From: a virus
Strand: one strand, 5' to 3'
DNA: 33,643 nucleotides
Virus record (IMG/VR): IMGVR_UViG_3300010885_049182
Coordinates: 1-33,643 of that record
In this document: positions 108-33,643 of the stretch, one piece after another
Layout: each line of letters begins with the position of its first letter
How positions within the stretch are numbered: the first letter of the stretch is position 1
Program-made: the position numbers and the translations under genes
Notes under the pieces: model-generated
The model's input: the letters and a program-made list of their open reading frames with translations, nothing else
Told to the model about the DNA's origin: nothing
The model's database searches: none

Positions 108-3100
108 TTATACTTCAGGAATCAAACAATTGTTTCCATATCGGAATGAGTTTTGTCCCTGTTTAACCCTCTTGACGATGTAGTCATACAATACTTCAGC
201 AGGGATATTCCCGCTTTTAAGAGCGTGTTCCACTTCCCCGCGAATGGCGATATTGCTGTGAGAACCAAGAACATTTTCCATCCGATTATTGATTGAAAAA
301 TGAAGATTTGCGCCTTGGGCGGCGCGTTCATGGTGGGCGTCAGAGATACCTTGCTCGCTTGAAGCCCATGCGTTATCGCTATCTTTTGCGTTTGGGTCAA
401 AACCGGGGAGATGGTAGAAGGGTCCTCCCTGCGTTTCAAAGGTAGCGCCGGAGGGCAGTGTGACCGTACCGACTTTGGCTTGGTCTGCGATAGTAAATCC
501 AACGCGTGTAGTCTTGGAATTAGAAATTCCAGCGAGGTTTCTGACACTCGCTAAAGGCGACTTCGTCTGCTGGCTGGAATTCCTGTTTTCTATCTTACCA
601 CTATCGTCACTCTGTGCAAGACCCAAATCCGGAATCATTTGGTCTAATTTTGTTTTTATTCCGGCATAAAACTGCTCGGCAGGTTTGCCCGTTTCTTTTG
701 CCCATGTTTTCGCCCTTTGTTCCCACAGACCTCTGACCGCTTTGCGCTCAGCATCGTTTTTAAACGCGCCCGCTTTTGCAAACGTGTCAATCAAGTTGTC
801 CAGAGGTTTTGCCGCTTCCTTGTCCTTTTCCGTAGCGGAAGGCGTATTCTGTCCCGCGACAGTCTGCGAAGCCTGTACGGGTCGCGCAAGCGGGTTTACG
901 GGCGTCTTACTGCTATTACCTGCGGCAATCGCCTTTGCTAACGGTGATTGTTTTTCTTCAGGAAGTTTGCTCTGGTTCTCGTAATACTTCCTTGCCGCTT
1001 CTGCGCGATTTTGCCATGCCTGATTCGCTTGCTTGACTTCCTCTGGCGTATTGCGCTGTGAATACTGAGACACATATTGGGAACGAGCGTCCTGATACAG
1101 TTTGTCCAGATGCGGTTTGACTTTTTCGCCGAATGACTTGATTGCTTCGTTAGCAAAGTCACCGAACTTCACCGCGCCCTTCGCCATCTTCACCGCCATC
1201 AGTTTCGCCAAATCGGGTAAGAACTTGGCAAACCGTGCGGCAGTCATCGCGCCAAACGGGTCAGACATCACAATGCCCTTGCCGAGTTCGCGCTTCAGTC
1301 TGTCCGACAAACGCGCCTGAATACGGCTTTCAATGGCTTCCAATTGCTCCAGACGGGAGTTTGGTTGTGACTTAGAAAAAGCGACTCCGTAAGGCTTTTC
1401 CATTCCTCTGGACTCACCAGCAGTTTTTGCGTTACTGTATAGCGGTCCATAGAAAGCGTCTTTTGCTTTGCCGTTTTCGTCAACAAACTCCTCTGGTCTG
1501 TACGACAAGTCTTTGCCGCCCATAATAATTTCGACGGTACGCGCAAAACGGGACGGCGAAACATTTTCTTTCTGTTTCGACAGCACGTTCCGCAACATAT
1601 CGACAAGGCGACCAAAAGCCTTTTTGACTTGTTTTTGAAGGCGTTCCGATAAAGGTAATTTAGCGTCTGCCTCTCGCTCCTTGATGTTCTCTGCTATTCG
1701 CTTCAAGTTATCTTGCCATGTAGGTTTGACTTTCGGCGCAGGGGCGGTCATCCCAAGATATTCAAGGTAAGATTGCGGGGTTTCTTTCGCGTTTAATTTC
1801 CCGCCTTTCCCAACCTGAAGCATGATTTCTTTGCGAATGCCTTCGGCAACCCATTCGTTGAACAAGTCTTTCAAGTCATAATCTGATCCAGGGAATTTGC
1901 GGTATAATTCCGCTCTCATATTTTCGTTGCCCACTAAATCAGCAAAGTAATTGTGTAACGATGAACGTTCTTCGCCGGGTAACAAGAATGATAGGTGATG
2001 AGCGATTTCATGAGGAGTAACATCCTCTTGACCTGCGCCTACTTTGGACAAGTACACAACGGAGTTTGCCGTTTCTAATGGATGTTTCAAGACATAAAAA
2101 CCAGACGCTTTTACGCCAGATGCATTGCTGTCACCTGCGGTTTGATCTGTGTTGGAAAGGCGAACAAAGTCAAAAGCGGGAGTTGGCAATGTATCAACAA
2201 ACAGTTTTGCTACCTTCTTGGCGGCAGGAGACAGGTTCTGATCCGATTCTAAGGATTTAAGGAAGTTTTCCTTGCCCGTTTGCACAATGCCTTTTGCGGT
2301 TTGATCCCGTTTTAACTCCTCTTTTTCCCGCTTATGTTGCTCCAACACCTGCTCAAACGTTGGTACATAATTACGATCTCTTTCCTCTTGAAGTTCTTTT
2401 TCGTTTTCTACTTTGATCCTACGAGCAAATTCTTCTTTGCTCATAGGCTCATCCATCCATGCATCTTTTTCGATGCCTCTTTGATGCTCGATTTTGACCG
2501 CTTCCCAAAAAGTGTCGGGGTCTTTGTCAAAAGTACGGCGGTCTGTCCGTCGCATAATCCGGTCAAACTCATCGCGGGTTATGCCGGGGTTATCCTGCAT
2601 CTCCTCTAATCCAACACTAATCAGAAAGTCAACATCGTACCTATCATCTGGTGTGAATTTTGAGTACAATATCGCTTTGTCTTTAGATGCAAAGCCTTCT
2701 TTGGCATGAATCTCATTGGATTGTTTCCATATCTCCCGCAAGTACGTCTTGATTGACTCCCCATGCTCGTCAATCATCTGCTTGCGCCATTCATTGAACT
2801 TGATAGCGCCCTTAGCAATCTTGACCGCGCCAAGTTTGGCATACGCCGCAATTAACTCTGGTTCATCTTCGGGACGGAATGCGATACCTGCGCCCTTCTT
2901 CCGCTGCTTGATCTCGTCGATCTTGGCGCGAGCGTCGGACTCGATGGCGTCAAGGCGGGAGGTAGACTTTGCCGATTTTGGGGATTTATTTGATTCAGAT
3001 GCAGTGTTGCGTTTGTCGACTACGTAATCTCTCAAGTCCGTTTTGCCAAGACTTGTTTGCATTATCTCCTTTTTGCCGATTCTCATGGGAGTTGCAAATT

Positions 3101-5786
3101 CTTTTTCTTGGGAATATTTGTCCAGCCATTGAACATATACGTTCCCGTTGTTATCTACGGTGATAACCTGCCCTTTGACTTTGGGGTCATGGACGGAATA
3201 TATTCTTTTCCCTCTCATATCTTCGACATAAGCGGGAATTTGGTCAAGGTGCGTGTTTCCAGCGTTTCGTGACGCACGAATTTTTATTTCGCGTGAAATA
3301 TAAAATTCTGAGGTAAACTCCACCTGTTTACCTCGCGCTATAGCAATACCCCCCTCTTGATTGACTTCATCGGCAAATTTTTGCGCGGATTCCAAAGAGT
3401 CAAAATCCATGTAAGTCTTTGGGAGATTTCTTCTGTCAGCAGGAGTAAGTGAGTCAATGCCTTCCACAACAGGCTTTGCCGGTTCAGAAACAGCAACGCC
3501 CTCCGGTTTGGAGGGCGTCTTGCTTACTTCTTGGGCAGGTTTGGAACGATATTGATTGTCAGCATTATCTAAATACTCAGAACGCTTATTTTCTGACATT
3601 TGCGAAATTTTGAAAGGACTTTTGTCAAAAACACCTTTGCCACTAAGCACATAAAAGGCGTCTTTATCAAAAACATCGCTTGACTTAAACTTACCTGCAA
3701 GGTAGTTTTCCCATACAATACTTTCCCAATCAGCAATGGCTGAGTTATATTTCTCTCGAGCAATTGCATTAGAGGCAAATTTTTGTTTTAGACGCCGAGA
3801 TTGTTCCGCTTCCGACATTCTGCTTAATTGATATGCGGATACATCCGTTCCTATAATAGGTTTTGATGCGCCAACAGACCGTGCGTAACTTTCCTTATCC
3901 TTCATCCACGCAGGATTCTCCGTCTTAGCAGGTTCCGTCTTGCTTACTTCTTGGGCGGGTTCCGTCTTAGCAGGTTCCGTCTTAGCAGGTTTAGCGGCAG
4001 GAGGTTTGGGCGACAAATCAAGACCTGGCACGGTAGGAGTGCCCGGTTTGTTCGGAGCAGACAATTCCCCTACCGGATTCAATCTGATACCCGGCGCTGA
4101 CGGAACATTTCGAGAAGGCGAGGCGCTTCCCTGACGAAGCGGAGACGGACTCTTGTCTACAAGGCGATTCGGAATTATTGTTGTGTCAGGATTCTTCGCA
4201 CCCGGCATCATTGGCAATCCTGGCACATCCGGCAATGAATACTTGGAAGGGTCTACTCCGGCAAGGTCAAGCGGTGATCTTTTAGAATCGGGACGCGAAA
4301 AAGGAGGACGCAACATCATAGGAGCGCCGCCAGTACTTAAATCAAGCAGTGACTTGCCGCGAGGAACTGAAAATCTAAACGGAGCGACATCTCCCGCCAT
4401 GTTGGGCAATGGAGCCTCTACGCCGCCGTGCGCCCGTCCTGCAAGAGCGCCCGCAATGGCTTCTGCTGCCATATACGGATCACGGTTCTTTGCCGCTTCT
4501 ATCGCAGGAGGAACGGACAATCCTACATTCAATCCGACGTTGCTCGCCGCTTCAAAACCTTTGGCAAATTGACGCGCCGCCGCGACGTACTCTGGAGCCG
4601 CCCTTCCCGCTATCGCCGCGTTATACATGGCAAGTGGCGAAACTCCTCGCGCCTTCGCCGCCGCCATCAGCGTTTTTCCTGCCGCGATTGCGCCATAAGC
4701 GGATTTCGAGTTACGCACCGCTTGCGCCGGGTTCAACCCAAACGCAACGGCAAGCGCCGTGATCTTTCCTGCTGCCGCCGCGCCGGGAGCCGTTGCATTG
4801 GCTTTTTCCTGCCGCTGGCGGTACTGGTCGGCAACCTCCGGGTCGTAGGAGTTGCCCATCATTGCGCCCGCCGCCGCATCAATACCCTTCGGACCAAGCA
4901 TCGCGCCGCCTGCGCTACCGAGAACCGTTCCCGCAAGCGCCCCCACCGGACCAAACGCCCCCCCGACTTTTCCAAGAACCGCGCCGCCTGCATAACCTGA
5001 TGCCGCCGCTTTTGCAAGCTCCGGGTAGTCTTGTAATTGGGAGTCCAAATATACCTGTGTCGGGTCTTTGGCGACAAGGGGATTTGTCTGGTCAAACACT
5101 TCATTCGCCGCCGCCGTGTAACCATTTTTCTTCAAGCGAGACTGTTCCATCTGCGATAGGGAAAGCGCGAAGTTACGGGCAATAGCATTTGGAGCGTTCA
5201 AGATTGCATCGCCCAAATACCCCAATGCGCCTAACTCGTTTTTGCGTGGAGGCGCAACAGTTGGGACATTTGGCGCAGTCTTCCGTAATGCCTGTGCGTT
5301 ATTGGCGTAAGGCGTTCCTAAAACATCGGGGATTGCATTGCCGAAAAAATCTGTCTTGACAGGAGCGCTCGCCTGTACATCTGCGTAAGACTTGCCCCCA
5401 TTGGAAATAGCAGTATTGTCACGCCGTCTAAAATCTGTAATGCTCATCGGCGGCGATTGAGGCGCAGGTTTACTTGCCGTCTTTCTAACAGGCGCATTCT
5501 TCCTAACAGGCGCAGGAGTAGTTTTAGAAGGGTAGGAATCTACAAGGCGGCGCTGTTGTTCCGCTTTCCCTGCATCGGGATACGAGGAAAGAGCCGCATC
5601 CTCACGATGTCTAAAATCCGTAATGTTGATCTGCTTTGCTTGCGGAGGCTTAGGCGCGGTTGGGGTTTTTGCCGAGGCAAACACTTTTTCTGCCGCATCC
5701 GCTATGTCTTCTTTGGAAGGTTCTTGGTTAAAAGAAACTCGGTATTTCGCCCCGGTAGCAGGGTCTTTGATTTCATAGTCAGGCAT
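108..5786 (-). CDS. Giant internal virion protein with HEXXH metallopeptidase motif and duplicated polyvalent-protein-like module (1892 aa)
   Basis: The largest gene and the last complete one of the late operon; its ATG directly follows the TAA of the gene before, with AAAGGA upstream. The N terminus (MPDYEIKDPATGAKYRV, then an acidic helix) is a short domain often seen at the start of phage internal proteins. Two copies of an ITDFR-containing motif follow (about residues 52-71 and 113-131), then a Gly/Ala-rich hydrophobic stretch at about 265-312 that could insert in a membrane. Pro/Lys/Thr/Glu-rich linker repeats lie around 605-765. HEIAH at residues 1259-1263 is a zinc-peptidase HEXXH motif; E1311 in NEWVAEG could be the third ligand. 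Two related modules (about 943-1027 and 1479-1571) carry the A-V-K-x-A-K-G-A-[IV]-K-F motif seen in large polyvalent phage proteins. Position and size suggest an ejected protein. Coding and phage origin are certain; the enzymatic role is inference. Confidence 0.85.
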   Translation of the reverse strand: MPDYEIKDPATGAKYRVSFNQEPSKEDIADAAEKVFASAKTPTAPKPPQAKQINITDFRHREDAALSSYPDAGKAEQQRRLVDSYPSKTTPAPVRKNAPVRKTASKPAPQSPPMSITDFRRRDNTAISNGGKSYADVQASAPVKTDFFGNAIPDVLGTPYANNAQALRKTAPNVPTVAPPRKNELGALGYLGDAILNAPNAIARNFALSLSQMEQSRLKKNGYTAAANEVFDQTNPLVAKDPTQVYLDSQLQDYPELAKAAASGYAGGAVLGKVGGAFGPVGALAGTVLGSAGGAMLGPKGIDAAAGAMMGNSYDPEVADQYRQRQEKANATAPGAAAAGKITALAVAFGLNPAQAVRNSKSAYGAIAAGKTLMAAAKARGVSPLAMYNAAIAGRAAPEYVAAARQFAKGFEAASNVGLNVGLSVPPAIEAAKNRDPYMAAEAIAGALAGRAHGGVEAPLPNMAGDVAPFRFSVPRGKSLLDLSTGGAPMMLRPPFSRPDSKRSPLDLAGVDPSKYSLPDVPGLPMMPGAKNPDTTIIPNRLVDKSPSPLRQGSASPSRNVPSAPGIRLNPVGELSAPNKPGTPTVPGLDLSPKPPAAKPAKTEPAKTEPAQEVSKTEPAKTENPAWMKDKESYARSVGASKPIIGTDVSAYQLSRMSEAEQSRRLKQKFASNAIAREKYNSAIADWESIVWENYLAGKFKSSDVFDKDAFYVLSGKGVFDKSPFKISQMSENKRSEYLDNADNQYRSKPAQEVSKTPSKPEGVAVSEPAKPVVEGIDSLTPADRRNLPKTYMDFDSLESAQKFADEVNQEGGIAIARGKQVEFTSEFYISREIKIRASRNAGNTHLDQIPAYVEDMRGKRIYSVHDPKVKGQVITVDNNGNVYVQWLDKYSQEKEFATPMRIGKKEIMQTSLGKTDLRDYVVDKRNTASESNKSPKSAKSTSRLDAIESDARAKIDEIKQRKKGAGIAFRPEDEPELIAAYAKLGAVKIAKGAIKFNEWRKQMIDEHGESIKTYLREIWKQSNEIHAKEGFASKDKAILYSKFTPDDRYDVDFLISVGLEEMQDNPGITRDEFDRIMRRTDRRTFDKDPDTFWEAVKIEHQRGIEKDAWMDEPMSKEEFARRIKVENEKELQEERDRNYVPTFEQVLEQHKREKEELKRDQTAKGIVQTGKENFLKSLESDQNLSPAAKKVAKLFVDTLPTPAFDFVRLSNTDQTAGDSNASGVKASGFYVLKHPLETANSVVYLSKVGAGQEDVTPHEIAHHLSFLLPGEERSSLHNYFADLVGNENMRAELYRKFPGSDYDLKDLFNEWVAEGIRKEIMLQVGKGGKLNAKETPQSYLEYLGMTAPAPKVKPTWQDNLKRIAENIKEREADAKLPLSERLQKQVKKAFGRLVDMLRNVLSKQKENVSPSRFARTVEIIMGGKDLSYRPEEFVDENGKAKDAFYGPLYSNAKTAGESRGMEKPYGVAFSKSQPNSRLEQLEAIESRIQARLSDRLKRELGKGIVMSDPFGAMTAARFAKFLPDLAKLMAVKMAKGAVKFGDFANEAIKSFGEKVKPHLDKLYQDARSQYVSQYSQRNTPEEVKQANQAWQNRAEAARKYYENQSKLPEEKQSPLAKAIAAGNSSKTPVNPLARPVQASQTVAGQNTPSATEKDKEAAKPLDNLIDTFAKAGAFKNDAERKAVRGLWEQRAKTWAKETGKPAEQFYAGIKTKLDQMIPDLGLAQSDDSGKIENRNSSQQTKSPLASVRNLAGISNSKTTRVGFTIADQAKVGTVTLPSGATFETQGGPFYHLPGFDPNAKDSDNAWASSEQGISDAHHERAAQGANLHFSINNRMENVLGSHSNIAIRGEVEHALKSGNIPAEVLYDYIVKRVKQGQNSFRYGNNCLIPEV
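3518..3963. repeat. Direct repeat in linker of the giant virion protein
   Basis: GTCTTGCTTACTTCTTGGGC occurs near 3519 and again near 3938, encoding PAQEVSKT twice. Between and around them are short PAKTE repeats. These low-complexity linkers separate the N-terminal membrane-like part from the peptidase region. Confidence 0.75.
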
Positions 5787-7571
5787 TTATGGAATCCTTT
5801 TGAATTCGGCAATTTTTCCCGATTTGGTTGTGACCTTGCCAGTCAAAGAAGAACGTGAATTACTGCTCCGTGACGGAGGAGGAGTTGGCGAACTTAAACC
5901 AACCGCCCCTCTCATCTTTTTAGCATCGCGGGGAATAGCATCCTTTTGGGCTTGTGTCAAGGCAGGAGGAGGAGTAGCCTTATTTTTACCGGGGGTATCG
6001 TAAATAAAACCGCCTGTAGGGTTTTTAACAAGGGGTTTGCCGTTTGAAGGAATCGTGACAGGGAATCCTAAAGGAACATCAGGTTTGGTTTTGGGAGAAT
6101 TAGGGTTCAATCTCGATCGTTTTGTATCGACCAACCCTTGCATTTGATCTTTTTCTTCAGGAAGGAGAGTGTGCCAAACGCCATTCTTTCTATATCCGCC
6201 CGCCTTTAAAATGCTCTCCATCCCATCAATTTCATCATTAACTTTAAAAATTTCAGATGGCGTCAATCCTGTTACCGGGTCACGGAAGGAAGCGCCCGGC
6301 TTTTTGCTTTTCTCATACTCGAATCGTTTTAACGCAAGCTCATAAGTCCTGTCGGCATTCTTTCTTGCCGCCTCCGTAGTCGCCGCTTGTCGATCGGCAT
6401 CGGCTTGACGCAATGCAATCTCCGCTTTCTGATACGGAGTCATTTCGTCGTTTGCTTTGAAATTGTAATTTATTGGCAATGCGCTGGGATTCAGCGCCTT
6501 CATGATCTGGTTTAGCCTGTTGCCCGCTTGTTGTTTTGTTTCAATAGAAGCGTTCGGGTTTTGCATTGTCCTTTCATGGATAGGAATCTCTAACTGCAAT
6601 CGCTTGACTTGCGCCTCATACTTCAATTGATCTGGTGACTTTGCCGGGATTTTGGCAAAAGCGCCCGCCCCCGGATACTTCTGCAAAATTGCAGGATTGC
6701 CCGCAAGATACGCTTGTCGAGCCTCTGGAGTCATCTGGGCAAGCATTATCACCATCGCCCGTTCATCGTCTCTGATGCCGTTCTCTCTTTTCTCTTTTTC
6801 GGCAATAGAGCGCTCCAGAGCGGTTACCTTCTTAATGCCCAAATTCTCCCGGTTCGCCGCTTGCTGATACTGTCTCTGGTAGTCCTGTGCCGCTACCTGA
6901 TTCGCGTTCTGGATATCCTGTACTTGCGCGTTGTAGTTCTGCAATCGGTCTTGCTCCCGCGCATCCGATCCCTGCATTGCACCCTGACCGCCTGCCGCAA
7001 GCCCTGCAAGAGCGCCCTGACCGCCGCCAAGCAATCCTCCCAGCAATGCCGCAACGCCAGAGGCAATCAAGCCCCGCTTCGCATCGCCCCTGAAATCACG
7101 CGGCGTCAATGCCGGATTCCGAATCATGTTACGAGGAACCGGATACTTATAATCCTCATTGCGAAGCGATTCTAATTCGTCATTCTGGTAATTGTTACTC
7201 ACAGGCGCAGGAGGGGCAGGATTAGGGACAACCGCTATCATGCCATTCCGAGAAGATTCGGTTGACACTGGATTGTCGGGGTAATAACCCGGTGATACGG
7301 ATTGACCCATATGGAATCCCGGCACTAATGGGAAAGGTTCGTTCGTAGGGGGAGACGGTGCAATCGGGATAAGTTGCTCATCCGTCAAATCGTTCAATGT
7401 CGGACGCGCATACCCCTTTGGTTGGAACATACCAAGAAGCGGATCATAAGGACCCGCGCCTAAACGTTGACTTGCAGGACCGCTTTGACTTGCAGGTATC
7501 GGTATCCATTGACTTCGCGGCGGCACAGGATCAAGACCCGTATTTGGTTTTTTTGCAGGAGGTTTTGCCAT
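5787..7571 (-). CDS. Probable internal/ejection virion protein (594 aa)
   Basis: No family is recognised. The first 150 residues are Pro-rich and low in predicted structure. A Gly/Ala-rich hydrophobic segment at about 163-203 (LIASGVAALLGGLLGGG core) resembles a glycine-zipper membrane segment. Long charged helices rich in Gln, Glu, Arg and Lys follow (about 205-290 and 370-425), then a basic Pro/Ser-rich tail. This layout and its position just before the giant 1892-residue protein fit a DNA-ejection or core protein. It starts at ATG 7571 behind AAAGGGAATCACA, a leader shared with other virion genes, and its TAA abuts the ATG of the next gene, so translation is probably coupled. Confidence 0.8.
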   Translation of the reverse strand: MAKPPAKKPNTGLDPVPPRSQWIPIPASQSGPASQRLGAGPYDPLLGMFQPKGYARPTLNDLTDEQLIPIAPSPPTNEPFPLVPGFHMGQSVSPGYYPDNPVSTESSRNGMIAVVPNPAPPAPVSNNYQNDELESLRNEDYKYPVPRNMIRNPALTPRDFRGDAKRGLIASGVAALLGGLLGGGQGALAGLAAGGQGAMQGSDAREQDRLQNYNAQVQDIQNANQVAAQDYQRQYQQAANRENLGIKKVTALERSIAEKEKRENGIRDDERAMVIMLAQMTPEARQAYLAGNPAILQKYPGAGAFAKIPAKSPDQLKYEAQVKRLQLEIPIHERTMQNPNASIETKQQAGNRLNQIMKALNPSALPINYNFKANDEMTPYQKAEIALRQADADRQAATTEAARKNADRTYELALKRFEYEKSKKPGASFRDPVTGLTPSEIFKVNDEIDGMESILKAGGYRKNGVWHTLLPEEKDQMQGLVDTKRSRLNPNSPKTKPDVPLGFPVTIPSNGKPLVKNPTGGFIYDTPGKNKATPPPALTQAQKDAIPRDAKKMRGAVGLSSPTPPPSRSSNSRSSLTGKVTTKSGKIAEFKRIP

Positions 7572-7600
7572 TAGTGTGATTCCCTTTTCTCTCTGTTAAA

Positions 7601-8251
7601 TCAAAGCGGTTTAGACTGCGTTTGTTGTTTCATACCGCCCATACCGTACAGGCTTGCCCCGGTCTGCAATGCACCGCTTAACAGGTTTGTCCAGCGATCT
7701 ATTTTATGGTTCTCCTGCTGTTGCCATGCGTTCGCCATATTGCCGTACATACCCCCCGCATTGCCATAGGCGCTCTGCGCGTTGCCGTATGCGCCCATCG
7801 CATTACCATAGCCCTGCTGTGCATTACCAGAGAGTAACTGTTGCAGTTGGTTCGCCGAGTCTACCGCTCGCTGATTGTAGTAGTTGGACGCATCGTTCTG
7901 CGCTCCCCCTAACGCCCGTGCCAATTGGGACGCATAAATGGTTCCCTGACCTGCCGTGAAAGAATCGCCTCCCCCATTAGGAATCTGGTTTCTTAACTGC
8001 TCCATCTGCCGATTGTAAGCGTCCTGCATATTGCCCGTATTCTGATTCACAAACGAAGCGGTTTCCTGAGACGTTGGAGCATAGGTTCGCTTGCTTAAAA
8101 GCGAGGCAAGACCGGAGATAGCATTGTCTGCTTGCGGGCGATACTGCTGATACTGCCCGTATGCCGATTCCCCTGCATCCTTGAACTGGTTCCCAATGCC
8201 AGAAGCCATCTGCGCTTGTTGTTTTTGATCCCCAATGTACGGATTTCCCAT
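7601..8251 (-). CDS. Small Gln/Asn/Gly-rich virion protein with YGNA repeats (216 aa)
   Basis: The protein is rich in Gln, Asn, Gly, Ala and Tyr. Tandem repeats at about residues 148-172 have the pattern YGNAxxA-YGNAxxA-YGNAGGM-YGN, and the C terminus is a Gly/Met/Leu-rich segment. No catalytic motif is visible. It is the first of three consecutive genes that look like internal virion or ejection proteins. The start at 8251 is supported by GAGAGAAAAGGAATCACA. The family was not recognised, so the role rests on context and composition. Confidence 0.75.
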   Translation of the reverse strand: MGNPYIGDQKQQAQMASGIGNQFKDAGESAYGQYQQYRPQADNAISGLASLLSKRTYAPTSQETASFVNQNTGNMQDAYNRQMEQLRNQIPNGGGDSFTAGQGTIYASQLARALGGAQNDASNYYNQRAVDSANQLQQLLSGNAQQGYGNAMGAYGNAQSAYGNAGGMYGNMANAWQQQENHKIDRWTNLLSGALQTGASLYGMGGMKQQTQSKPL

Positions 8252-27676: not shown

Positions 27677-28158
27677 TGTTCTGTATCCTCTGTAATATCA
27701 GCGAGGGCGTCTACCCATGTCATACGCCAATCAGTCACAAATTTGTCAGCGAGTGTGTTGTATTCGTTGAGCTTGCGCTTGCTGGCGTTTCTGAGGTCAT
27801 GCGCTGCCCTGCATTTGTTCGCCTGTGCTATCCTGGATTTTGCTAATCCTCGCAGGTAGGCGGTGTTATCGTCTACGTCCAGCGCTCTGTTGCCTGCATG
27901 GTAGGAGTGCAGGGAAACCTGGTCGCGTGTCGTTGGCGTTTTGATTGCGTATCCTAATATCTCGCCCAAGGCGTTAGAGTTGGCGGTATCAGGGAGATAT
28001 CCAGAGCGGGCGACGTTGGCGGCGGTATCAACAGGTTTGTATTCCGTCCCTGTCTGTCGTGCAATTTCACGTTTCTCAGCGGTAGAGAGGGAGCGTGAGC
28101 GGTTGTCAGCATTGGCAACCTCTGAGCGTAGGATATTGAGTCTGCGTACATGATCCAT
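27673..28158 (-). CDS. First gene of the leftward operon, uncharacterised (161 aa)
   Basis: It starts at ATG 28158 behind GAAGGTG. Charged and largely helical, with SRSLSTAEKREIARQTGTEY near the start, then ALGEILGYAIKTPTTRDQVSL, and a basic stretch (KSRIAQANKCRAAHDLRNASKRKL). The many Arg and Lys fit nucleic-acid or protein binding. No family is recognised. Its place next to the divergent promoter region suggests early or middle expression. Confidence 0.65.
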   Translation of the reverse strand: MDHVRRLNILRSEVANADNRSRSLSTAEKREIARQTGTEYKPVDTAANVARSGYLPDTANSNALGEILGYAIKTPTTRDQVSLHSYHAGNRALDVDDNTAYLRGLAKSRIAQANKCRAAHDLRNASKRKLNEYNTLADKFVTDWRMTWVDALADITEDTEQ

Positions 28159-28246
28159 GCAGATACACCTTCCCCCTCTACCTATTTTATCCCATTAGCG
28201 CTATCAACATAGTGATCGACAGCGCGGGTCTATGCAGTTTTGTGCA

Positions 28247-28295
28247 GCGTGTGACTATCCGTTATGGCATTGCACCGCCCGGTATTTTCACACGC
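28247..28295. promoter_or_regulatory. Inverted repeat next to leftward promoter
   Basis: GCGTGTGA at 28247-28254 is perfectly complementary to TCACACGC at 28288-28295, with 33 bases between. The right arm sits where leftward transcription from the predicted promoter would begin. This fits an operator, or a hairpin in the 5' leader of the leftward transcript. Confidence 0.4.
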
Positions 28296-28297
28296 AC

Positions 28298-28326
28298 AAT
28301 ATATCATGATGTTTTATATTTGGTAA
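28298..28326 (-). promoter_or_regulatory. Candidate leftward sigma70-type promoter
   Basis: On the minus strand TTACCA (28326-28321) and TATATT (28303-28298) are separated by 17 bases, matching four and five of six consensus positions. It would drive the 161-residue gene and the terminase operon with a leader of about 130 bases. A second possible -10, TATAAT at 28375-28370, lacks a good -35. Confidence 0.45.
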
Positions 28327-28424
28327 TTATGCCGATTGCGCCGGTATTTAATGATAGGCATTGATATATATTATACTCATTCAGGTATTCTAAAATCTTT
28401 TTTTATTTATTTTTCTGAATCCCC

Positions 28425-28454
28425 TTGACACAGTACGACCTATGCCTGTATAGT
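28425..28454 (+). promoter_or_regulatory. Strong rightward sigma70-type promoter
   Basis: TTGACA at 28425-28430 is a perfect -35 box and TATAGT at 28449-28454 a good -10, spaced by 18 bases, with an A/T tract just upstream. It points to the plus-strand operon, which begins about 45 bases downstream. A host-recognised promoter of this strength suits early genes. Confidence 0.8.
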
Positions 28455-28495
28455 AGGTTTATATCCCGGCGGGGCTACGCATGGAGTTTTGTATT

Positions 28496-29263
28496 ATGTA
28501 CAATTTAGTTGCCAATATTCCGCTCAGTGCGCCTTTTGCCATTGGTGCGTTTGCTGACGAGTTCGTCGCCATATCTAACTGCGCGGGCTACTCGAACAAA
28601 ATGGGCGTCGAGGTCGAGATGCGCGACGATGCAGGTAATGTTGTCTGCGCCTACCATCGCGGCGTTCGCGTCGAGTCCGAACCTGTAGCGCCCGTTGCCG
28701 AACCTGTTGTCGAACCTGTCGCCGAACCTGTAGCGCCCGAATGGGATGGCGGCGACGGGTATGTTAAGAGATTGAAAGTCCGTCTACAGGCTGAGGCTGA
28801 TGCCGCCGCTATTGAGTTAGTTCAATTAGCAACGACAGATGCTGATTACGCCGCCGTCGCCAAAATGTCGCGCACGGAATTAGTGACGGAGCATACCCGC
28901 ATTGACAGCGAGTTCCGGTCTTGGCGGAGTCCCGGCAATGGCGGCGCACGGTACGTCATTGCAGTCAAGGGGCGAAAATTCCCGATTGGTAATATCTACT
29001 ACGCGGGGAAGGTTGAGCGCACAAAATGGGGTTACAAAATGGAGGTCGAGGGCGCTCTCGTCAATCCTGATAATTTCCAGACCGTTGTGACGCGCAAACG
29101 CTACGAGCATACGCTCAAAATGGCAGACGCGGTAATGCTCGCTGTCACCGCTATGGGATTGCTCGTCGAACAGATATCAGATTACAAATTAGACAGACTA
29201 AGCGTTTGGGATAACCTGCACATCGTTGAGGTTGACAGCGACGAGGATATCCCTCTCTACTAA
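28496..29263 (+). CDS. First gene of the plus-strand operon, uncharacterised (255 aa)
   Basis: ATG 28496 (MYNLVANIPLSAPFA) is preferred because GGAG lies nine bases upstream. An in-frame ATG at 28481, adding five residues, is possible. After a beta-rich first 60 residues comes a Pro/Val/Glu/Ala linker with repeated EPV units, then a helical part (KRLKVRLQAEADAAAIELVQLA), then a beta-rich part (ARYVIAVKGRKFPIGNIYY). No enzyme motif is seen. Directly behind the strong promoter, it is probably an early protein. Confidence 0.75.
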   Translation: MYNLVANIPLSAPFAIGAFADEFVAISNCAGYSNKMGVEVEMRDDAGNVVCAYHRGVRVESEPVAPVAEPVVEPVAEPVAPEWDGGDGYVKRLKVRLQAEADAAAIELVQLATTDADYAAVAKMSRTELVTEHTRIDSEFRSWRSPGNGGARYVIAVKGRKFPIGNIYYAGKVERTKWGYKMEVEGALVNPDNFQTVVTRKRYEHTLKMADAVMLAVTAMGLLVEQISDYKLDRLSVWDNLHIVEVDSDEDIPLY

Positions 29264-29270
29264 ACGACAA

Positions 29271-29358
29271 CGGGCGGCATCTGTCGCCCTTCTTAAACCC
29301 GCTTAGAACTGTCCGAAGCCAGTCTGAAAAAGGGTGACGGGGAAAGAGTTAAGACACC
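29271..29358 (+). repeat. 88-bp structured leader repeat, copy 1
   Basis: It fills the gap between the 255- and 121-residue genes. It matches 30097-30184 with one difference, and the match ends exactly at the start codon. Pairings visible: hairpin 29272-29277 with 29284-29289 (GGGCGG/TCGCCC); outer stem TCTTAA 29291-29296 with TTAAGA 29349-29354; CCCG 29298-29301 with CGGG 29338-29341. A purine tract, GAAAGAG, lies in the loop before the ATG. No known RNA family is recognised. Confidence 0.85.
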
Positions 29359-29724
29359 ATGAACTACGCCGTCATTGCAAAACCGAACTACTTTTCAGAC
29401 AACGTTCCATCGCATCCCGCCACCGTCGCGGCATTGTGCGAAACGATGGGAGAAGCAACCTCCTACATCGCTTCCCGTGAGCCTGAGAAAGTTCTGTCGC
29501 ATGGTCAATTCGCGCCGACCTCATACGAGATCAAGACCGTCGTCAGGTTTGCGTATGACAACGACCTCGAAGACCCGTCGCTTGACTGGTTAGATCAAGG
29601 CGCGTCTGAAGATGACGCGAACGATTACGAAAAAGTCGCTACCGCCTTACACAGCGGCGATATTGCAGGATGGTATCCCTGCGATTATCCCGCCGAGCGG
29701 ATTGTCGCTTGCAAAGTCAAATAG
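29359..29724 (+). CDS. Uncharacterised acidic early protein (121 aa)
   Basis: It begins at the exact end of the 88-bp leader repeat and stops at TAG 29722-29724, inside the 5' part of the type II hammerhead. The protein opens with a beta strand (MNYAVIAKPNYF), has a helical middle (ATVAALCETMGEATSYIASR), and an acidic second half (DNDLEDPSLDWLDQGASEDDA). No known family. It may be a small host-interacting protein, as expected in an early phage operon. Confidence 0.7.
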   Translation: MNYAVIAKPNYFSDNVPSHPATVAALCETMGEATSYIASREPEKVLSHGQFAPTSYEIKTVVRFAYDNDLEDPSLDWLDQGASEDDANDYEKVATALHSGDIAGWYPCDYPAERIVACKVK

Positions 29725-29798
29725 TCGAAACGCCTCTCGTACACACTTGTACGATGGGCGTCGTGCGGAGATGGTCTACCGCGCCTGATGAGACAGAC
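29716..29798 (+). ncRNA. Hammerhead ribozyme, type II permutation
   Basis: All core blocks are present in type II order: GAAA (29727-29730), stem III, cleavage triplet GUC (29760-29762), closed stem I, CUGAUGA (29785-29791). Stem III pairs 29731-29743 with 29748-29760 with one mismatch and one wobble. Stem I pairs GUGCGG 29763-29768 with CCGCGC 29779-29784. Stem II joins the ends: GAC 29792-29794 with GUC 29724-29726, and after an internal loop GAC 29796-29798 with GUC 29716-29718. Predicted self-cleavage falls after C29762, between the 121- and 89-residue genes. Stem III holds TCGTACACACTTGTACGA. Confidence 0.85.
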
Positions 29799-29817
29799 CA
29801 AAGAAAGAGTTAAGACA

Positions 29818-30087
29818 ATGTTTACTTTTGAAAACGCAGAACCGATTGCAAACAAGGGTTTGTATATGGCGCTCCTGCTTAGTGATGTCAACACATTCGT
29901 ACAGAAATTTGAAGGCGCAGACCCTTCTGTATCTAAAGTGACCATGATGGAACAGTCAACAGGAGAGTACCTTGTACTCGACCATATGAGCAGTGAAGAC
30001 TACATCACTTGGTTCTTCCCGACCTTTGAGTCTGCTGTTGATTGTTTCGGACAAATTGCTGAAACGTACAAATGTCAATTTGAATAA
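29818..30087 (+). CDS. Uncharacterised acidic early protein (89 aa)
   Basis: ATG 29818 (MFTFENAEPIANKG) is preferred. It sits after GAAAGAGTTAAGACA, the leader shared by neighbouring genes. An upstream ATG at 29788 lies within the ribozyme core CUGAUGA. The protein is acidic and alpha/beta (LYMALLLSDVNTFVQKF, YLVLDHMSSEDYITWFFP). No family recognised. After predicted ribozyme cleavage it would lie on the 3' RNA product, about 55 bases from the cut. Confidence 0.7.
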   Translation: MFTFENAEPIANKGLYMALLLSDVNTFVQKFEGADPSVSKVTMMEQSTGEYLVLDHMSSEDYITWFFPTFESAVDCFGQIAETYKCQFE

Positions 30088-30096
30088 CAAACGCTC

Positions 30097-30184
30097 CGGG
30101 CGGCATCTGTCGCCCCTCTTAAACCCGCTTAGAACTGTCCGAAGCCAGTCTGAAAAAGGGTGACGGGGAAAGAGTTAAGACACC
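30097..30184 (+). repeat. 88-bp structured leader repeat, copy 2
   Basis: Identical to 29271-29358 except for one base (GTCGCCCC here, GTCGCCCT in copy 1), with all proposed pairings intact. The match ends at the start codon of the 73-residue gene. The two genes that follow the copies are not similar, so only the leader has been duplicated. Confidence 0.85.
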
Positions 30185-30406
30185 ATGACAAGAACGCAAA
30201 TTATCAACGCGATGGAGACGGCGAAAATCAAAGGCGAAGTGCGCGGATCAGGAAAAAACGTAGAGATAGAACTACCGGACGATAACCAAAAAAAGAAATT
30301 CTGCAAGAATGTTGCCAACTTCGGAGGATTCAAGGCGGGATACGGCGCTTGGGTTTTAAGACCTGACTACCAGACCAGCCCGCTGTATTACCCTAACACA
30401 GATTAA
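30185..30406 (+). CDS. Small basic early protein (73 aa)
   Basis: The start is fixed by the end of the leader repeat. The protein is short and basic: MTRTQIINAMETAKIKGEV, then NVEIELPDDNQKKKFCKNV, and an aromatic C-terminal part (GYGAWVLRPDYQTSPLYY). A helix-strand layout may bind nucleic acid, but no family is recognised. The TAA (30404-30406) is immediately followed by the type I hammerhead. Confidence 0.65.
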   Translation: MTRTQIINAMETAKIKGEVRGSGKNVEIELPDDNQKKKFCKNVANFGGFKAGYGAWVLRPDYQTSPLYYPNTD

Positions 30407-30408
30407 CC

Positions 30409-30476
30409 CCGCCTGATGAGTCTGTTGGTCGCAGACGAAACTCCTCTCGTACAAGTGTGTACGAGAGGAGTCGCGG
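30409..30476 (+). ncRNA. Hammerhead ribozyme, type I permutation
   Basis: Type I order is complete: stem I 5' strand CCGC (30409-30412), CUGAUGA (30413-30419), stem II GUCUG/CAGAC (30420-30424 with 30432-30436) with a seven-base loop, GAAA (30437-30440), a perfect 13-bp stem III (30441-30453 with 30458-30470), GUC (30470-30472), and stem I 3' strand GCGG (30473-30476). Predicted cleavage is after C30472. Stem III holds TCGTACAAGTGTGTACGA. After cleavage GCGG can pair instead with CCGC at 30482-30485, giving the 3' product a 5' hairpin. It lies between the 73- and 128-residue genes. Confidence 0.88.
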
Positions 30477-30507
30477 TAGACCCGCTAAGAAAGAGAGTTT
30501 AGACACC

Positions 30508-30894
30508 ATGAGCGCGTACATCATGCAACACGATCTAACGATAAGTAGCCTTGTAAATCATTTCGCAGACCCCTGCTGTTCATACGACAGGCTATGGATT
30601 GAAACGGCGAACGGGTACGAATACCTCACACGCGAGAATGCCGCGTCTGTCGCGGAGATGCTCTACAACAAAAACGTTGACAGCGTAGACTACCGCTACA
30701 GCGAAACCAACGAACGGAACTTCGTCTATTGCCCTTCGCGGGAAGTCCTCAGCAACAAGGAAGTCAACGACATAATCAACAGTCTGGAGTACCAATCGTG
30801 CGAAGCGCCGGACTATTTCGCCTCAAAAGCCTTTTTCGTTTTGTGCGCTATGCGGAAAGACTTGTTGCGCCGCGTCCTTCAGGAGCAATACTAA
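30508..30894 (+). CDS. Uncharacterised early protein (128 aa)
   Basis: ATG 30508 (MSAYIMQHDLTISSL) follows AAGAAAGAGAGTTTAGACACC, the leader variant of this operon. A frame opening at 30457 would begin inside stem III of the ribozyme and is rejected. The sequence is alpha/beta with several Cys, Tyr and Asn, including CCSYDRLWIETANGYEYLT and SREVLSNKEVNDIINSL, and a basic helix at the end. No family recognised. Confidence 0.7.
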   Translation: MSAYIMQHDLTISSLVNHFADPCCSYDRLWIETANGYEYLTRENAASVAEMLYNKNVDSVDYRYSETNERNFVYCPSREVLSNKEVNDIINSLEYQSCEAPDYFASKAFFVLCAMRKDLLRRVLQEQY

Positions 30895-30905
30895 CAAACA
30901 GAAAA

Positions 30906-30958
30906 GGCAGAGCGCTGATGTATCAGCGCCCTGCCTGAGAGTTTAGACTCTGAATTTT
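30906..30958 (+). terminator. Double hairpin, terminator-like
   Basis: Hairpin 1 pairs GGCAG-A-GCGCTGA (30906-30918) with TCAGCGC-C-CTGCC (30923-30935), 12 bp with one mismatch. Hairpin 2 pairs AGAGT 30938-30942 with ACTCT 30947-30951 and is followed by GAATTTTA. It lies between the 128- and 66-residue genes and probably terminates part of the transcripts. Confidence 0.65.
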
Positions 30959-30984
30959 ACCATCGAACCAGACGGACGGCAACC

Positions 30985-31185
30985 ATGAAACCCATCATCA
31001 AAAAACAGCACCGCTTCTGCAAGATATCCTGGATTCGATTGAAACCAGTGTACGAAGTCATGATACCCGCGAACACCGAGGGGGTGATAGGAGATTACAC
31101 CATCATCTGCCAATGCGACACGCTCGCCGAGGCAAAGCAAAAAGCGAACGAATACAAAACCGGAGGACAAAACAATGGGAAATAA
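30985..31185 (+). CDS. Small basic protein (66 aa)
   Basis: Basic first half (MKPIIKKQHRFCKISWIRLK) and a beta-beta-alpha second half (VIGDYTIICQCDTLAEAKQKANEY). No known family. The ribosome binding site is weak. It overlaps the next gene by 11 bases, and that gene's strong GGAGG lies within its last codons. Confidence 0.6.
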   Translation: MKPIIKKQHRFCKISWIRLKPVYEVMIPANTEGVIGDYTIICQCDTLAEAKQKANEYKTGGQNNGK

Positions 31186-31423
31186 AGGCAGAGCGACAGG
31201 CGGGTACGTATGGGAACAGGCGTACATGACCAATGTCAATGGCGTCTGGTACATCGCCCGACGAAGCGAAGGTATGCCAGAGGCTTGTGACTCCTGCGGA
31301 AAAGGCGGTTACTGTCGCAAGCACTACAGCCTCGTTAGAGTTAACGAAAAGCACATAGACGAGACAGGCACACACCCCTGCACATTGGATTGCGCCTCGT
31401 CTGTGATTGACAGCGAACTATAG
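31175..31423 (+). CDS. Small Cys-rich putative zinc-binding protein (82 aa)
   Basis: GGAGG lies eight bases before ATG 31175. The middle holds C38, C41, C47 and H50 (CDSCGKGGYCRKH), a compact zinc-ribbon-like arrangement; C69 and C73 could be a second half-site. The first part (GGYVWEQAYMTNVNGVWYIARR) is beta-rich. No family is recognised. Metal binding is inferred from ligand spacing only. Confidence 0.65.
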   Translation: MGNKGRATGGYVWEQAYMTNVNGVWYIARRSEGMPEACDSCGKGGYCRKHYSLVRVNEKHIDETGTHPCTLDCASSVIDSEL

Positions 31424-31468
31424 ACAAGTCAGGAGATCACACCAGACAACCACCGGAAAGGGAACCTT

Positions 31469-31765
31469 ATGACAGTCAAATTATGCTCGGTATTCAATCC
31501 TGACTACCCCCGCCATCAACAAAACATTATAGCGCCCGTCACCATCCCCGTAGACGATATCAAAGGCGCTTCTATCGCCTGTAAAGCGTTCATCGCCGCC
31601 GCAGATATCGGGAGCGGCAACTGGTCGGGCGGCGCTGGAGAAGTACGCAACGACGACGGAAAACTAATCGCTCGCATATCCTACAACGGGAGAGCGTGGG
31701 AGGTAAGCGATCCCTTATGGGAAGTGTATCTCCCTGAAGAATACCGCAAAGAAATACAGTTTTAA
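31469..31765 (+). CDS. Uncharacterised small protein (98 aa)
   Basis: AAAGGGAACC lies upstream of ATG 31469. The first half holds VTIPVDDIKGASIACKAFIA and the second half GSGNWSGGAGEVRNDDGKLI and ARISYNGRAWEVSD, a small alpha-beta layout with a Trp-rich hairpin. The pattern is common among small hypothetical phage proteins. No function is assigned. Confidence 0.65.
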   Translation: MTVKLCSVFNPDYPRHQQNIIAPVTIPVDDIKGASIACKAFIAAADIGSGNWSGGAGEVRNDDGKLIARISYNGRAWEVSDPLWEVYLPEEYRKEIQF

Positions 31766-31786
31766 CCATCGAGAGGGGCAAAGATA

Positions 31787-32125
31787 ATGACAGCGACAAA
31801 AGAATGGATTGAAGGATTGAAAGAAGGCGACAAGGTTGCCTTGTACAATCGCCGATGGGGAATCTCAACAGTGACCCGCGTGACTAATTGCCGCATTATG
31901 GCGGGCGGATTGACATTTGACCGCAAAACAGGCAAGGAGTACGGCGGTAGTGGATGGAATTTCGGATCAATCAGACCGCTGACCCAAACATTTGTAGATG
32001 AACGAAAAGAACATGATCGACGGATAAAGGCGCAAAAAGCCTTTAAGGAAATCGACTATTTAAAACTGACAACGGATCAGTTAGAAGCGATTGTCGCTAT
32101 CGTAAACGCGAAAGAGACTGCTTAA
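31787..32125 (+). CDS. Small beta-barrel-like phage protein (112 aa)
   Basis: GAGGGG lies upstream of ATG 31787. GDKVALYNRRWGISTVTRVT followed by IMAGGLTFDRKTGKEYGG resembles a small barrel domain (promoter-clearance or SH3-like) seen in many phage hypotheticals, with a helical C terminus (AFKEIDYLKLTTDQLEAIVA). Its TAA overlaps the ATG of a 26-residue frame by one base. Confidence 0.7.
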   Translation: MTATKEWIEGLKEGDKVALYNRRWGISTVTRVTNCRIMAGGLTFDRKTGKEYGGSGWNFGSIRPLTQTFVDERKEHDRRIKAQKAFKEIDYLKLTTDQLEAIVAIVNAKETA

Positions 32126-32205
32126 TGCCTGACCAACAAGTGACCATTCCCTGCCGTGTTTGCGGCAGGGAACTGATTGCATCTCCTACAACAGGAAGGA
32201 AATAA
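32125..32205 (+). CDS. Micro-protein with CxxC (26 aa)
   Basis: ATG 32125-32127 overlaps the TAA of the 112-residue gene (TAATG), the coupling seen elsewhere in this genome. The product is MPDQQVTIPCRVCGRELIAS and a short tail, with C10 and C13 in a rubredoxin-knuckle-like CRVCGRE. One CxxC half-site would need a partner to hold zinc. A perfect 8-bp hairpin (32149-32170) lies within the coding sequence over the two Cys codons. Translation is not proven. Confidence 0.5.
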   Translation: MPDQQVTIPCRVCGRELIASPTTGRK

Positions 32206-32212
32206 GTATCTA

Positions 32213-32632
32213 ATGCCATCAAAACGTCATACAGACCGCATCGGTGTAATTTTATCGCCCCAAGCGGAGGAGTTTATCCGTTCCCGCGTCGATCCTGTAC
32301 GGGAGTTCGGAGCGGGTAGGGAATCTATCTCTACCCCGACAACAAACACCATCGAACGATACGCCGCGCTCATCGCAGACGGCGACGAGGAAGTCCAGGA
32401 GAAACTCAGCGAGGCAGAACTGAACTACCTGCGCGATATCCTCAATGGGACATTCATCACGCCCGACACGATTTCCAATTTATGGATGGAAGTCGCCGAC
32501 GCGGAGCCCGAATACGCTGTTAAATGGGGCATAAACGACAGCGAATTGGTCGTCAAACTCCAGATTATGCCTCTACACGCTCTCTGCGCCATCGTTGAGA
32601 ACGTCGAAGCGTACTGGAGGAAGGCAAAGTAA
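32213..32632 (+). CDS. Last gene of the plus-strand operon, uncharacterised (139 aa)
   Basis: ATG 32213 (MPSKRHTDRIGVILSPQ) is chosen; AGGAAGG lies about 13 bases upstream. A frame from TTG 32177 would overlap the 26-residue frame. The protein is acidic and helical (NTIERYAALIADGDEEVQEK, LSEAELNYLRDILNGT, LQIMPLHALCAIVENVEAYW). No family recognised. The bidirectional terminator follows nine bases after the stop. Confidence 0.7.
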   Translation: MPSKRHTDRIGVILSPQAEEFIRSRVDPVREFGAGRESISTPTTNTIERYAALIADGDEEVQEKLSEAELNYLRDILNGTFITPDTISNLWMEVADAEPEYAVKWGINDSELVVKLQIMPLHALCAIVENVEAYWRKAK

Positions 32633-32640
32633 AAACGTCA

Positions 32641-32674
32641 GGGGCGAGGTAGATTATCCTACCTCGCCCCTTTT
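32641..32674. terminator. Bidirectional intrinsic terminator
   Basis: GGGGCGAGGTAG (32641-32652) pairs perfectly with CTACCTCGCCCC (32659-32670) around a six-base loop. TTTT follows on the plus strand and TGACGTTTTT on the minus strand. It separates the convergent operons. The stop codon of the minus-strand 97-residue gene (32661-32659) is part of the stem. Confidence 0.9.
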
Positions 32675-32952
32675 ATCTGCGCTTCCAATTCCCCAATCCG
32701 ACAACAGGCGGCTTCGTGTTTCTCAAACCATTTATCGCACACACTTGTGCGAGTATCCCGCGAATCCAGAGCGCTTTGTAAATCCTCATCAGCTTCCTGT
32801 CGCTGGACTTTTTCATCGAACGCCCTCTCGTTTTCCGCTTCCAACTCCTTGATGTAGGATATCGCCTTCCTGATTCGCTCAGACACAGAGGGATATTCGC
32901 TTGACATACAATCAGCATCATTCCTCAATTCAATCAACTGGTAACAATCCAT
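32659..32952 (-). CDS. Small coiled-coil protein with embedded palindrome (97 aa)
   Basis: AGGAAG precedes ATG 32952. The start overlaps the gene before by 23 bases. Residues about 22-58 form a charged coiled coil (RIRKAISYIKELEAENERA). The palindromic 18-mer at 32735-32752 lies in frame and encodes RTSVCD within the otherwise helical SRDT...KWFEKHEAACC region. Such small coiled-coil proteins are common in phage accessory regions. Function unknown. Confidence 0.7.
   Translation of the reverse strand: MDCYQLIELRNDADCMSSEYPSVSERIRKAISYIKELEAENERAFDEKVQRQEADEDLQSALDSRDTRTSVCDKWFEKHEAACCRIGELEAQIKGAR
32735..32752. repeat. 18-bp palindromic element inside a gene
   Basis: A perfect TCGCACACACTTGTGCGA, in frame in the 97-residue gene, read there as codons for RTSVC plus the first two bases of D. 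This is identical to 18213-18230 and 33588-33605. Confidence 0.9.
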
Positions 32953-33229
32953 TGACTTCCTCTCTCAACTCAAACGATAAAGGCGAAACCGTTTCGCCTT
33001 TATCGAACGCTATCAACCATTTACCCGCTACCTCTGGCATCGCCCATGACCGCTGTATACCCTTGTAAACATCAGTAGCACAGACGATACGAGGAGCGAC
33101 CACCCATAACGCCGCTACCCTGATGCGCTCTTTCTGTGCCGTCCTGCGAAACGATAAGGCAATCGGGCAGCAGGACGTATCAGAGCGTTTCCCTTGCGCG
33201 ATATCGTCAGCCGTGATGGTCAGGCGCAA
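32930..33229 (-). CDS. Small conserved-type phage protein (99 aa, TTG start)
   Basis: The start is TTG 33229 (read M, then RLTITADDIAQGKRSD), because GAGGGG lies nine bases upstream and overlaps the stop of the methyltransferase. A longer TTG frame from 33268 has no such site. SCCPIALSF near the start and GKWLIAFDKGETVSPLSFEL near the end match a small protein I have seen in many phages, generally unnamed. VRVAALWVV-type strands lie between. Function unknown. It is likely translated with the methyltransferase. Confidence 0.7.
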   Translation of the reverse strand: MRLTITADDIAQGKRSDTSCCPIALSFRRTAQKERIRVAALWVVAPRIVCATDVYKGIQRSWAMPEVAGKWLIAFDKGETVSPLSFELREEVNGLLPVD

Positions 33230-33236
33230 AATTCTA

Positions 33237-33643
33237 TTACCCCTCGGCGAACGGGTCAGATAAATCAACTTCGCTGAATCGGTTTGCGATGGCTACGAGG
33301 ATAGGGTAGACCTGTGCGGGAACGACGGCGTTACCTAACGCTTTCAATCGTTTGGCACGGTCAGGCAGCTTGCTGGTGATTGTTCGCGGCGCTTCCCATT
33401 CGTGCTGTTCTTCGCCGGGGCGGGCGGAGAATCGGAAACATACGTCCATCCCTGCGGAAAGCCCTGCAACTGTTCCACCCATGACGGATTCAAGACTCCC
33501 TGTATCACTTGCTCCAATGTCGGCGAAAAGTTCGCACTGCTGTATCCGCCCACTTTGTTCGCTTTGGGCGTTGGAAACTCGGTGCGCTCGCACACACTTG
33601 TGCGATGCTTCAGGTTGTAAATGTCCGTCCTGAGTGAGCGTCC
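33237..33643 (-). pseudogene. C-terminal part of a cytosine-C5 DNA methyltransferase, frameshifted and cut by window edge
   Basis: One frame, open to the window edge, gives TEFPTPKANKVGG and VLNPSWVEQLQGFPQGWTY, the target-recognition end common in phage C5 methyltransferases. It then runs to a stop at 33344. The next frame supplies the missing continuation: EWEAPRTITSKLPDRAKRLK and ALGNAVVPAQVYPILVAIANRF, the family's motif X (GNAVVP). The change of frame falls near 33414-33420, in GCCCCGGCG. One extra C there would restore one frame (SPPAPGEEQHEWEAPR). The catalytic domain lies outside the window. A real mutation, sequencing error or frameshifting cannot be told apart here. Confidence 0.8.
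33588..33605. repeat. 18-bp palindromic element inside the methyltransferase reading frame
   Basis: A perfect TCGCACACACTTGTGCGA. In the methyltransferase frame (minus strand) it reads RTSVC followed by E, within NLKHRTSVCERTEFPTP, which is the same reading frame of the palindrome as in the 97-residue gene. Confidence 0.9.

Follow-up and report, generated by a model that had tools for sequence, protein, structure and literature searches.

The window analysed here covers the whole of an IMG/VR virus record (33,643 bases). It encodes terminase and portal proteins and carries an early operon whose first five genes are separated by ribozymes or ribozyme candidates (Table 1). On the plus strand the order is gene C, twister candidate, gene A, type II hammerhead, gene B, twister candidate, gene D, type I hammerhead candidate, and gene E. 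The number of promoter-like elements in the region is not above that in shuffles; a TTGACA/TATA element similar to the one ahead of gene C lies at the equivalent place in two related contigs, L003 and L005. PHROGs and Pfam searches of the early genes returned no match except a ProQ-like domain, and a DNA search of an annotated phage collection returned none. That domain belongs to a 112-aa protein further along the same strand (31787-32125; Pfam Phage_ProQ_C_like, 34.8 bits against a cut-off of 27), which is possibly an RNA chaperone.

Table 1. Features of the early operon and its ribozyme junctions, in positions of the window
Feature	Position	Strand	Remark
Sigma-70-like promoter, TTGACA-18-TATAGT	28425-28454	+	11/12 consensus matches; ahead of the early operon
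Gene C	28481-29263	+	260 aa; no known family
7-bp hairpin directly upstream of twister 1	29272-29289	+	kept in five copies, with one compensatory change
Twister candidate 1 (type P1 without P3)	29290-29344	+	RF03160, 37.6 bits, E 1.2e-5; predicted cut between 29294 and 29295
Gene A	29359-29724	+	121 aa; no known family; stop codon TAG 29722-29724 in the hammerhead 5' edge
Type II hammerhead	29723-29802	+	RF02276 match; strict descriptor with controls; kept in L005; predicted cut between 29762 and 29763
18-nt palindrome TCGTACACACTTGTACGA	29737-29754	+	in loop III of the type II hammerhead; absent from L005
Leader AAAGAGTTAAGACAATG, common to four junctions	29804-29820	+	further copies at 29343, 30169, and 30490
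Gene B	29818-30087	+	89 aa; no known family
7-bp hairpin upstream of twister 2	30098-30115	+	same five-copy comparison
Twister candidate 2 (type P1 without P3)	30116-30170	+	RF03160, 34.8 bits, E 7.3e-5; predicted cut between 30120 and 30121
Gene D	30185-30406	+	73 aa; no known family
Type I hammerhead candidate	30409-30482	+	descriptor and fold; predicted cut between C30472 and 30473
Gene E	30508-30894	+	128 aa; no known family
Terminator-like hairpin, likely operon end	32640-32671	+	13 pairs, T-rich tail

A preliminary description of this DNA had placed a type II hammerhead between genes A and B, and the evidence bears it out. The Rfam covariance search proposed there returned Hammerhead_II (RF02276) at 46 bits against a gathering score of 37, with the entire model covered (E 1.6e-6 over the window), and no other Rfam family reaches its gathering score in the window. 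(A match to STnc560 at 29673-29795, with 15 bits and E 0.5, was dismissed as chance.) The core motifs follow the permuted type II order that had been reported, with GAAA at 29727-29730, GUC at 29760-29762, and CUGAUGA at 29785-29791. Stem I closes with the claimed 6 bp (29763-29768/29779-29784, including one G-U), and stem III, described earlier as about 12 bp, consists of 6 bp, a 1x1 mismatch, and 7 bp closed by a loop. Stem II is short, as stated, with 3 bp (GUC/GAC) at the open end; it is continuous rather than interrupted. Loop I (UGGUCU, 29772-29777) pairs with the tail (AGACCA, 29795-29800) in a 6-bp pseudoknot that the preliminary description had missed; mutation of a type II hammerhead has demonstrated that fast cleavage depends on contacts of this kind (PMC3088659). 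The sequence at 29720-29803 reads AAUAGUCGAAACGCC...GGGCGUC and, beyond the predicted cut, GUGCGGAGAUGGUCUACCGCGCCUGAUGAGACAGACCAAAG; a cut after C29762 is at the canonical site. The statement that the element begins at the upstream stop codon is also correct, since the TAG of gene A overlaps its 5' edge, contributes one base to stem II, and ends 2 nt before GAAA.

The folding z-score of the element is -3.5. A strict descriptor (core, stem I of at least 4 bp, stem III of at least 5 bp, and stem II of at least one pair) matches the window and L005, and has no match in 740 kb of control sequence from 79 viral contigs, two of which come from the L003 relative, or in shuffled sample contigs. As judged from its sequence, the element is confirmed as a genuine type II hammerhead and a fresh member of a known family. 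A core not conserved in related phages had been named earlier as grounds for refutation; the core is kept in L005, and no other relative with gene A was found. There, on a 4.7-kb contig, a gene A homologue (79% amino acid identity) is followed by the same hammerhead. The two versions agree at every position outside loop III, in which the window carries 18 additional nucleotides and one adjacent substitution. The DNA of gene A differs at many positions between the two, which leaves strong constraint or a recent exchange to account for the unchanged hammerhead. That it might instead be a decayed or chance ribozyme-like sequence, now inactive, is highly improbable: the intact core and pseudoknot, the Rfam score above cut-off, the absence of control matches, and the conservation in L005 all argue against it.

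The preliminary description placed the hammerhead correctly between two genes, and it overlooked the series of ribozyme candidates at the adjoining junctions. A relaxed-threshold Rfam search of 28100-33643 recovered two candidate type-P1 twisters lacking P3, both below the RF03160 gathering score of 67.2 bits, which is a database cut-off and not a biological feature. The two cassettes are 99% identical across 92 nt, and the hairpin directly upstream of the first folds at -13.7 kcal/mol (z -3.4). Most of the conserved L1/L4 letters match, and UCCC/GAGGG is changed to UCCG/GACGG, a matching double change. We compared five copies (two from the window, two from L003, and one from L005), two of which are nearly identical. 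Placed on the named structure with its pseudoknots, 96.7% of cells are paired: 85% in P1, whose outermost pair is lost in three copies, 95% in P2, and 100% in P4 and in the T1 and T2 pseudoknots. Five pairs show double-sided changes, three in P4 (variants ACUG/CAGU, CACG/CGUG, and CUCG/CGAG), one in T1 (C-G to U-A in the L005 twister), and one in the upstream hairpin, and slid controls gave no compensatory pairs. The covariation rests on five sequences because the clade has few members. We consider both elements strong candidates for type-P1 twisters on this comparative evidence.

A model built from the five copies recovers all five and finds no further convincing full-length match among 87 loci. 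A partial match at L005 4680-4697 is stopped by the contig end, which suggests that another cassette begins there. Likewise, the twister pattern found no new members over the viral contigs, and the Rfam search found no ribozyme in L220-L222. The absence of twisters elsewhere is weak evidence, since RF03160 searches missed the L003 and L005 twisters, which are near-copies of those in the window.

At the fourth junction, a candidate type I hammerhead has a complete core and stems of 4, 6, and 14 bp, with stem I open and stems II and III closed, and a pseudoknot between GGUC (30427-30430) and GACC (30479-30482). Its fold z-score is -4.3. The type I descriptor has one match in the clade, one in 11.2 Mb of shuffles, and none in 3.7 Mb of other contigs on both strands; in the remaining loci of the clade it matches nothing, and no junction of gene D with gene E turned up there. 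The relaxed Rfam search gave a weak hammerhead match at 30409-30476 (21.5 bits, E 3.7), and a separate search with Hammerhead_1 gave no match at E 0.001. Because neither Hammerhead_1 nor RAGATH-1-hammerhead matches significantly, we grade this element as a candidate only. The stem I strand GCGG (30473-30485 region) can instead pair with CCCGC downstream, a pairing that the minimum-energy fold prefers and that could represent either a 5' hairpin after cleavage or a rival fold before it.

Both hammerheads also contain a dispersed palindrome, the variant TCGTACACACTTGTACGA, which is reversed in stem III of the type I candidate (30447-30464). The family (TCGCACACACTTGTGCGA and variants) has eight copies in the window (16674, 18213, 18307, 19434, 29737, 30447, 32735, and 33588), five in the L003 record, three in the L002 record, and one in a fourth record; in a scan of viral contigs, the exact 18-mer was found in the L003 record, the L002 record, and one more only. 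L003 lacks two of the window copies (18 and 21 nt), L005 lacks the one in loop III (18 nt), and the window lacks a 72-nt compound copy that L003 has; each of these four length differences is divisible by three. By its distribution, the palindrome looks like a small mobile or hypervariable element, with loop III of the ribozyme as a tolerated site. A host link through the palindrome was also sought; three single genome matches, with no multi-copy genome, were judged to be chance.

Four consecutive junctions are thus occupied by three ribozyme classes (twister, type II hammerhead, twister, and type I hammerhead), with three of the four elements graded as candidates. Behind all four lies a leader of the form AAAGAG(AG)TTWAGACA..ATG, which has only these four copies on this strand of the window. 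Over the viral contigs, repeated matches to the leader pattern were found only in L005 and the L003 record; single matches in other viral contigs were taken as chance. On the upstream side of every predicted cut lies a hairpin that either reaches the cut or stops 5 nt short of it, and both downstream pieces of the hammerheads start with a hairpin. After a twister cut, P2 and P4 can persist, in a fold no better than that of shuffles. The junction between gene E and the next gene, F (30905-30955), has two back-to-back hairpins (z -6.9) with pairing-conserving changes in L003; they are not a known ribozyme and are perhaps a processing or termination site.

Comparison of the relatives indicates that the ribozyme class at a junction can change. 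In L005 a type II hammerhead precedes a gene of 228/229 aa that in L003 is preceded by a twister; the two proteins are 98% identical. One gene has therefore retained a preceding ribozyme while the class of that ribozyme changed, as far as the sequences tell. Such a swap between closely related phages suggests that what matters is the cut and, because the ribozyme classes are exchangeable, we propose that the conserved feature is a cut at the junction and not a particular ribozyme.

The gene that follows the hammerhead in L005 is unrelated to gene B, and the identity between window and L005 spans the hammerhead and leader and ends at the start codon of the unrelated genes. Such boundaries, together with the 99% identity of the two twister cassettes, would be expected if the cassettes were mainly recombination linkers, near-identical ribozyme-leader blocks that allow accessory genes to be exchanged while cleavage is tolerated or secondary. 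We think this account unlikely, since homology alone requires neither intact catalytic cores nor compensatory changes in P4 and T1, and it has no need of three ribozyme classes or of the intact hammerhead pseudoknots.

The arrangement was placed in a broader context with two samples of viral type II hammerheads. The first comprised 50 records, namely 49 taken in list order among the matches listed and that of L078, a known multi-copy case; the second comprised type II hammerheads with another stem III, and the samples were clustered to 63 and 78 groups. In the first, 48 of 50 records have an Rfam match at E 0.001, and 18 of 50 have two to nine. Multi-copy contigs are in a single orientation in 25/25 and 27/27 cases (52 in total). 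A second ribozyme class, twister, occurs in one of the 50 records (L225, record G053), and Hammerhead_1 gave one weak match over 50 records (47 sample records with the window, L003, and L005). The L225 contig, found independently of the clade, has two twisters and two type II hammerheads on its minus strand (1892-1950, 4153-4213, 7509-7573, and 7811-7875). Another phage contig, L226 (record G004), has nine type II hammerheads in about 6 kb (578-6544), all in one orientation.

In the two samples, 46% and 51% of the clusters have an upstream ORF (70 aa or longer) whose stop codon ends at most 6 nt ahead of GAAA; at random positions the figure is 1.4%. This tightness, and the 2-nt spacing in the window, would fit a ribosome-gated switch in which a ribosome engaged in termination sits over GAAA and the 5' side of stem III and delays the cut until upstream translation pauses. 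However, compact packing can account for the same tightness. At junctions with a ribozyme, hardly any bases are unused 5' of it and about 30 nt are free 3' of it. The median distance from CUGAUGA to the start codon is 26 nt, and the median junction length is about 92 nt with a ribozyme and 11 nt without. The window twisters, moreover, are not fused to a stop codon, and we regard gating as improbable.

We consider it probable that the four junction ribozymes, of exchangeable classes, process the early polycistronic mRNA into single-gene mRNAs with hairpin ends. The type II hammerhead would cut the early mRNA after C29762, which fits the earlier idea of a hammerhead that splits the operon mRNA, and the four elements together would divide the first part of the transcript into monocistrons. 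Each cut would leave the upstream mRNA with a stable 3' hairpin (29272-29289 in the case of the gene C mRNA), and the downstream mRNA would begin with a structured 5'-OH end, followed by the common leader and the start codon. We favor this reading because the type II hammerhead has an Rfam match above cut-off and clean controls, and is kept in L005 even though a different, unrelated gene follows it there; because five twister pairs are compensatory, with none in slid controls; because a complete type I hammerhead stands at the fourth junction and one leader lies behind all four; because a twister or a type II hammerhead precedes the same gene in L003 and L005; because hairpins occur at the predicted new ends; because many other viral contigs have two to nine type II hammerheads in one orientation; and because tandem hammerheads of prophages provide a precedent for cleavage (PMC3088659). 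At the sequence level one can see the type II hammerhead itself, the twister changes that preserve pairing, where the elements lie, and the class swap. Against this reading, the twisters and the type I hammerhead score under the Rfam cut-offs, the later junctions of the operon are without a detected ribozyme, the clade has few members, and the minimum-energy fold of the type I hammerhead favors the GCGG:CCCGC pairing.

A hairpin end impedes 3' exonucleases, as a 5'-OH end does the 5'-monophosphate-dependent RNase E; both effects may apply in the host of this phage. Cleavage in the cell would be expected to yield pieces of independent stability, and the benefit may lie in the separate dosing of small accessory genes. 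The operon provides a test object of 1.3 kb, whose cuts could be abolished one at a time through point mutations. A more general claim, that phages widely tile early operons with interchangeable ribozymes and that fusion to the stop codon makes the cuts ribosome-gated, coupling translation to release of the next mRNA, is speculative and, in our estimation, doubtful.

The window hammerhead resembles known type II hammerheads (RF02276; PMC3088659) in its core, permuted order, and closed stems I and III, as well as in its short stem II and its loop I-tail pseudoknot, which is common but not universal among them; the sole difference is the 18-nt clade-specific palindrome in loop III. Similarly, P1, P2, P4, T1, and T2 can form in the window twisters, with the cut between U and A, as in type-P1 twisters without P3 (RF03160; PMC5408937), a form that makes up about 20% of annotated twisters (PMC5408937). 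They depart from the RF03160 consensus in the UCCG/GACGG change and in the extra conserved hairpin directly upstream.

The association of ribozymes with particular genes has been described before. According to PMC10085705 and PMC6155905, hammerheads and twisters share an over-representation close to certain genes and to other ribozymes, and the reason why ribozymes cluster in phages is stated there to be unexplained. Relative to the gene associations cited in PMC10085705, the exchange reported here is at single junctions of closely related phages. The words "stop codon" are absent from the texts of PMC3088659 and PMC10085705, and an earlier notice of the fusion in reviews is possible; in the searchable literature, exchangeable tiling and stop-codon fusion look new.

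Finally, hammerhead clusters flanking prophage genes were already described by Perreault et al. (2011, PMC3088659), together with the idea that they process transcripts to single-gene mRNAs; in that study, tandem hammerheads of prophages cleaved in vitro, and one set also in E. coli. There, too, several hammerheads flank small genes. The window, in contrast, mixes twisters with two hammerhead permutations at four consecutive junctions that share one leader, and in its relatives the ribozyme class changes before the same gene. We therefore regard the mixed, exchangeable tiling of one operon as a novel form of a known arrangement.
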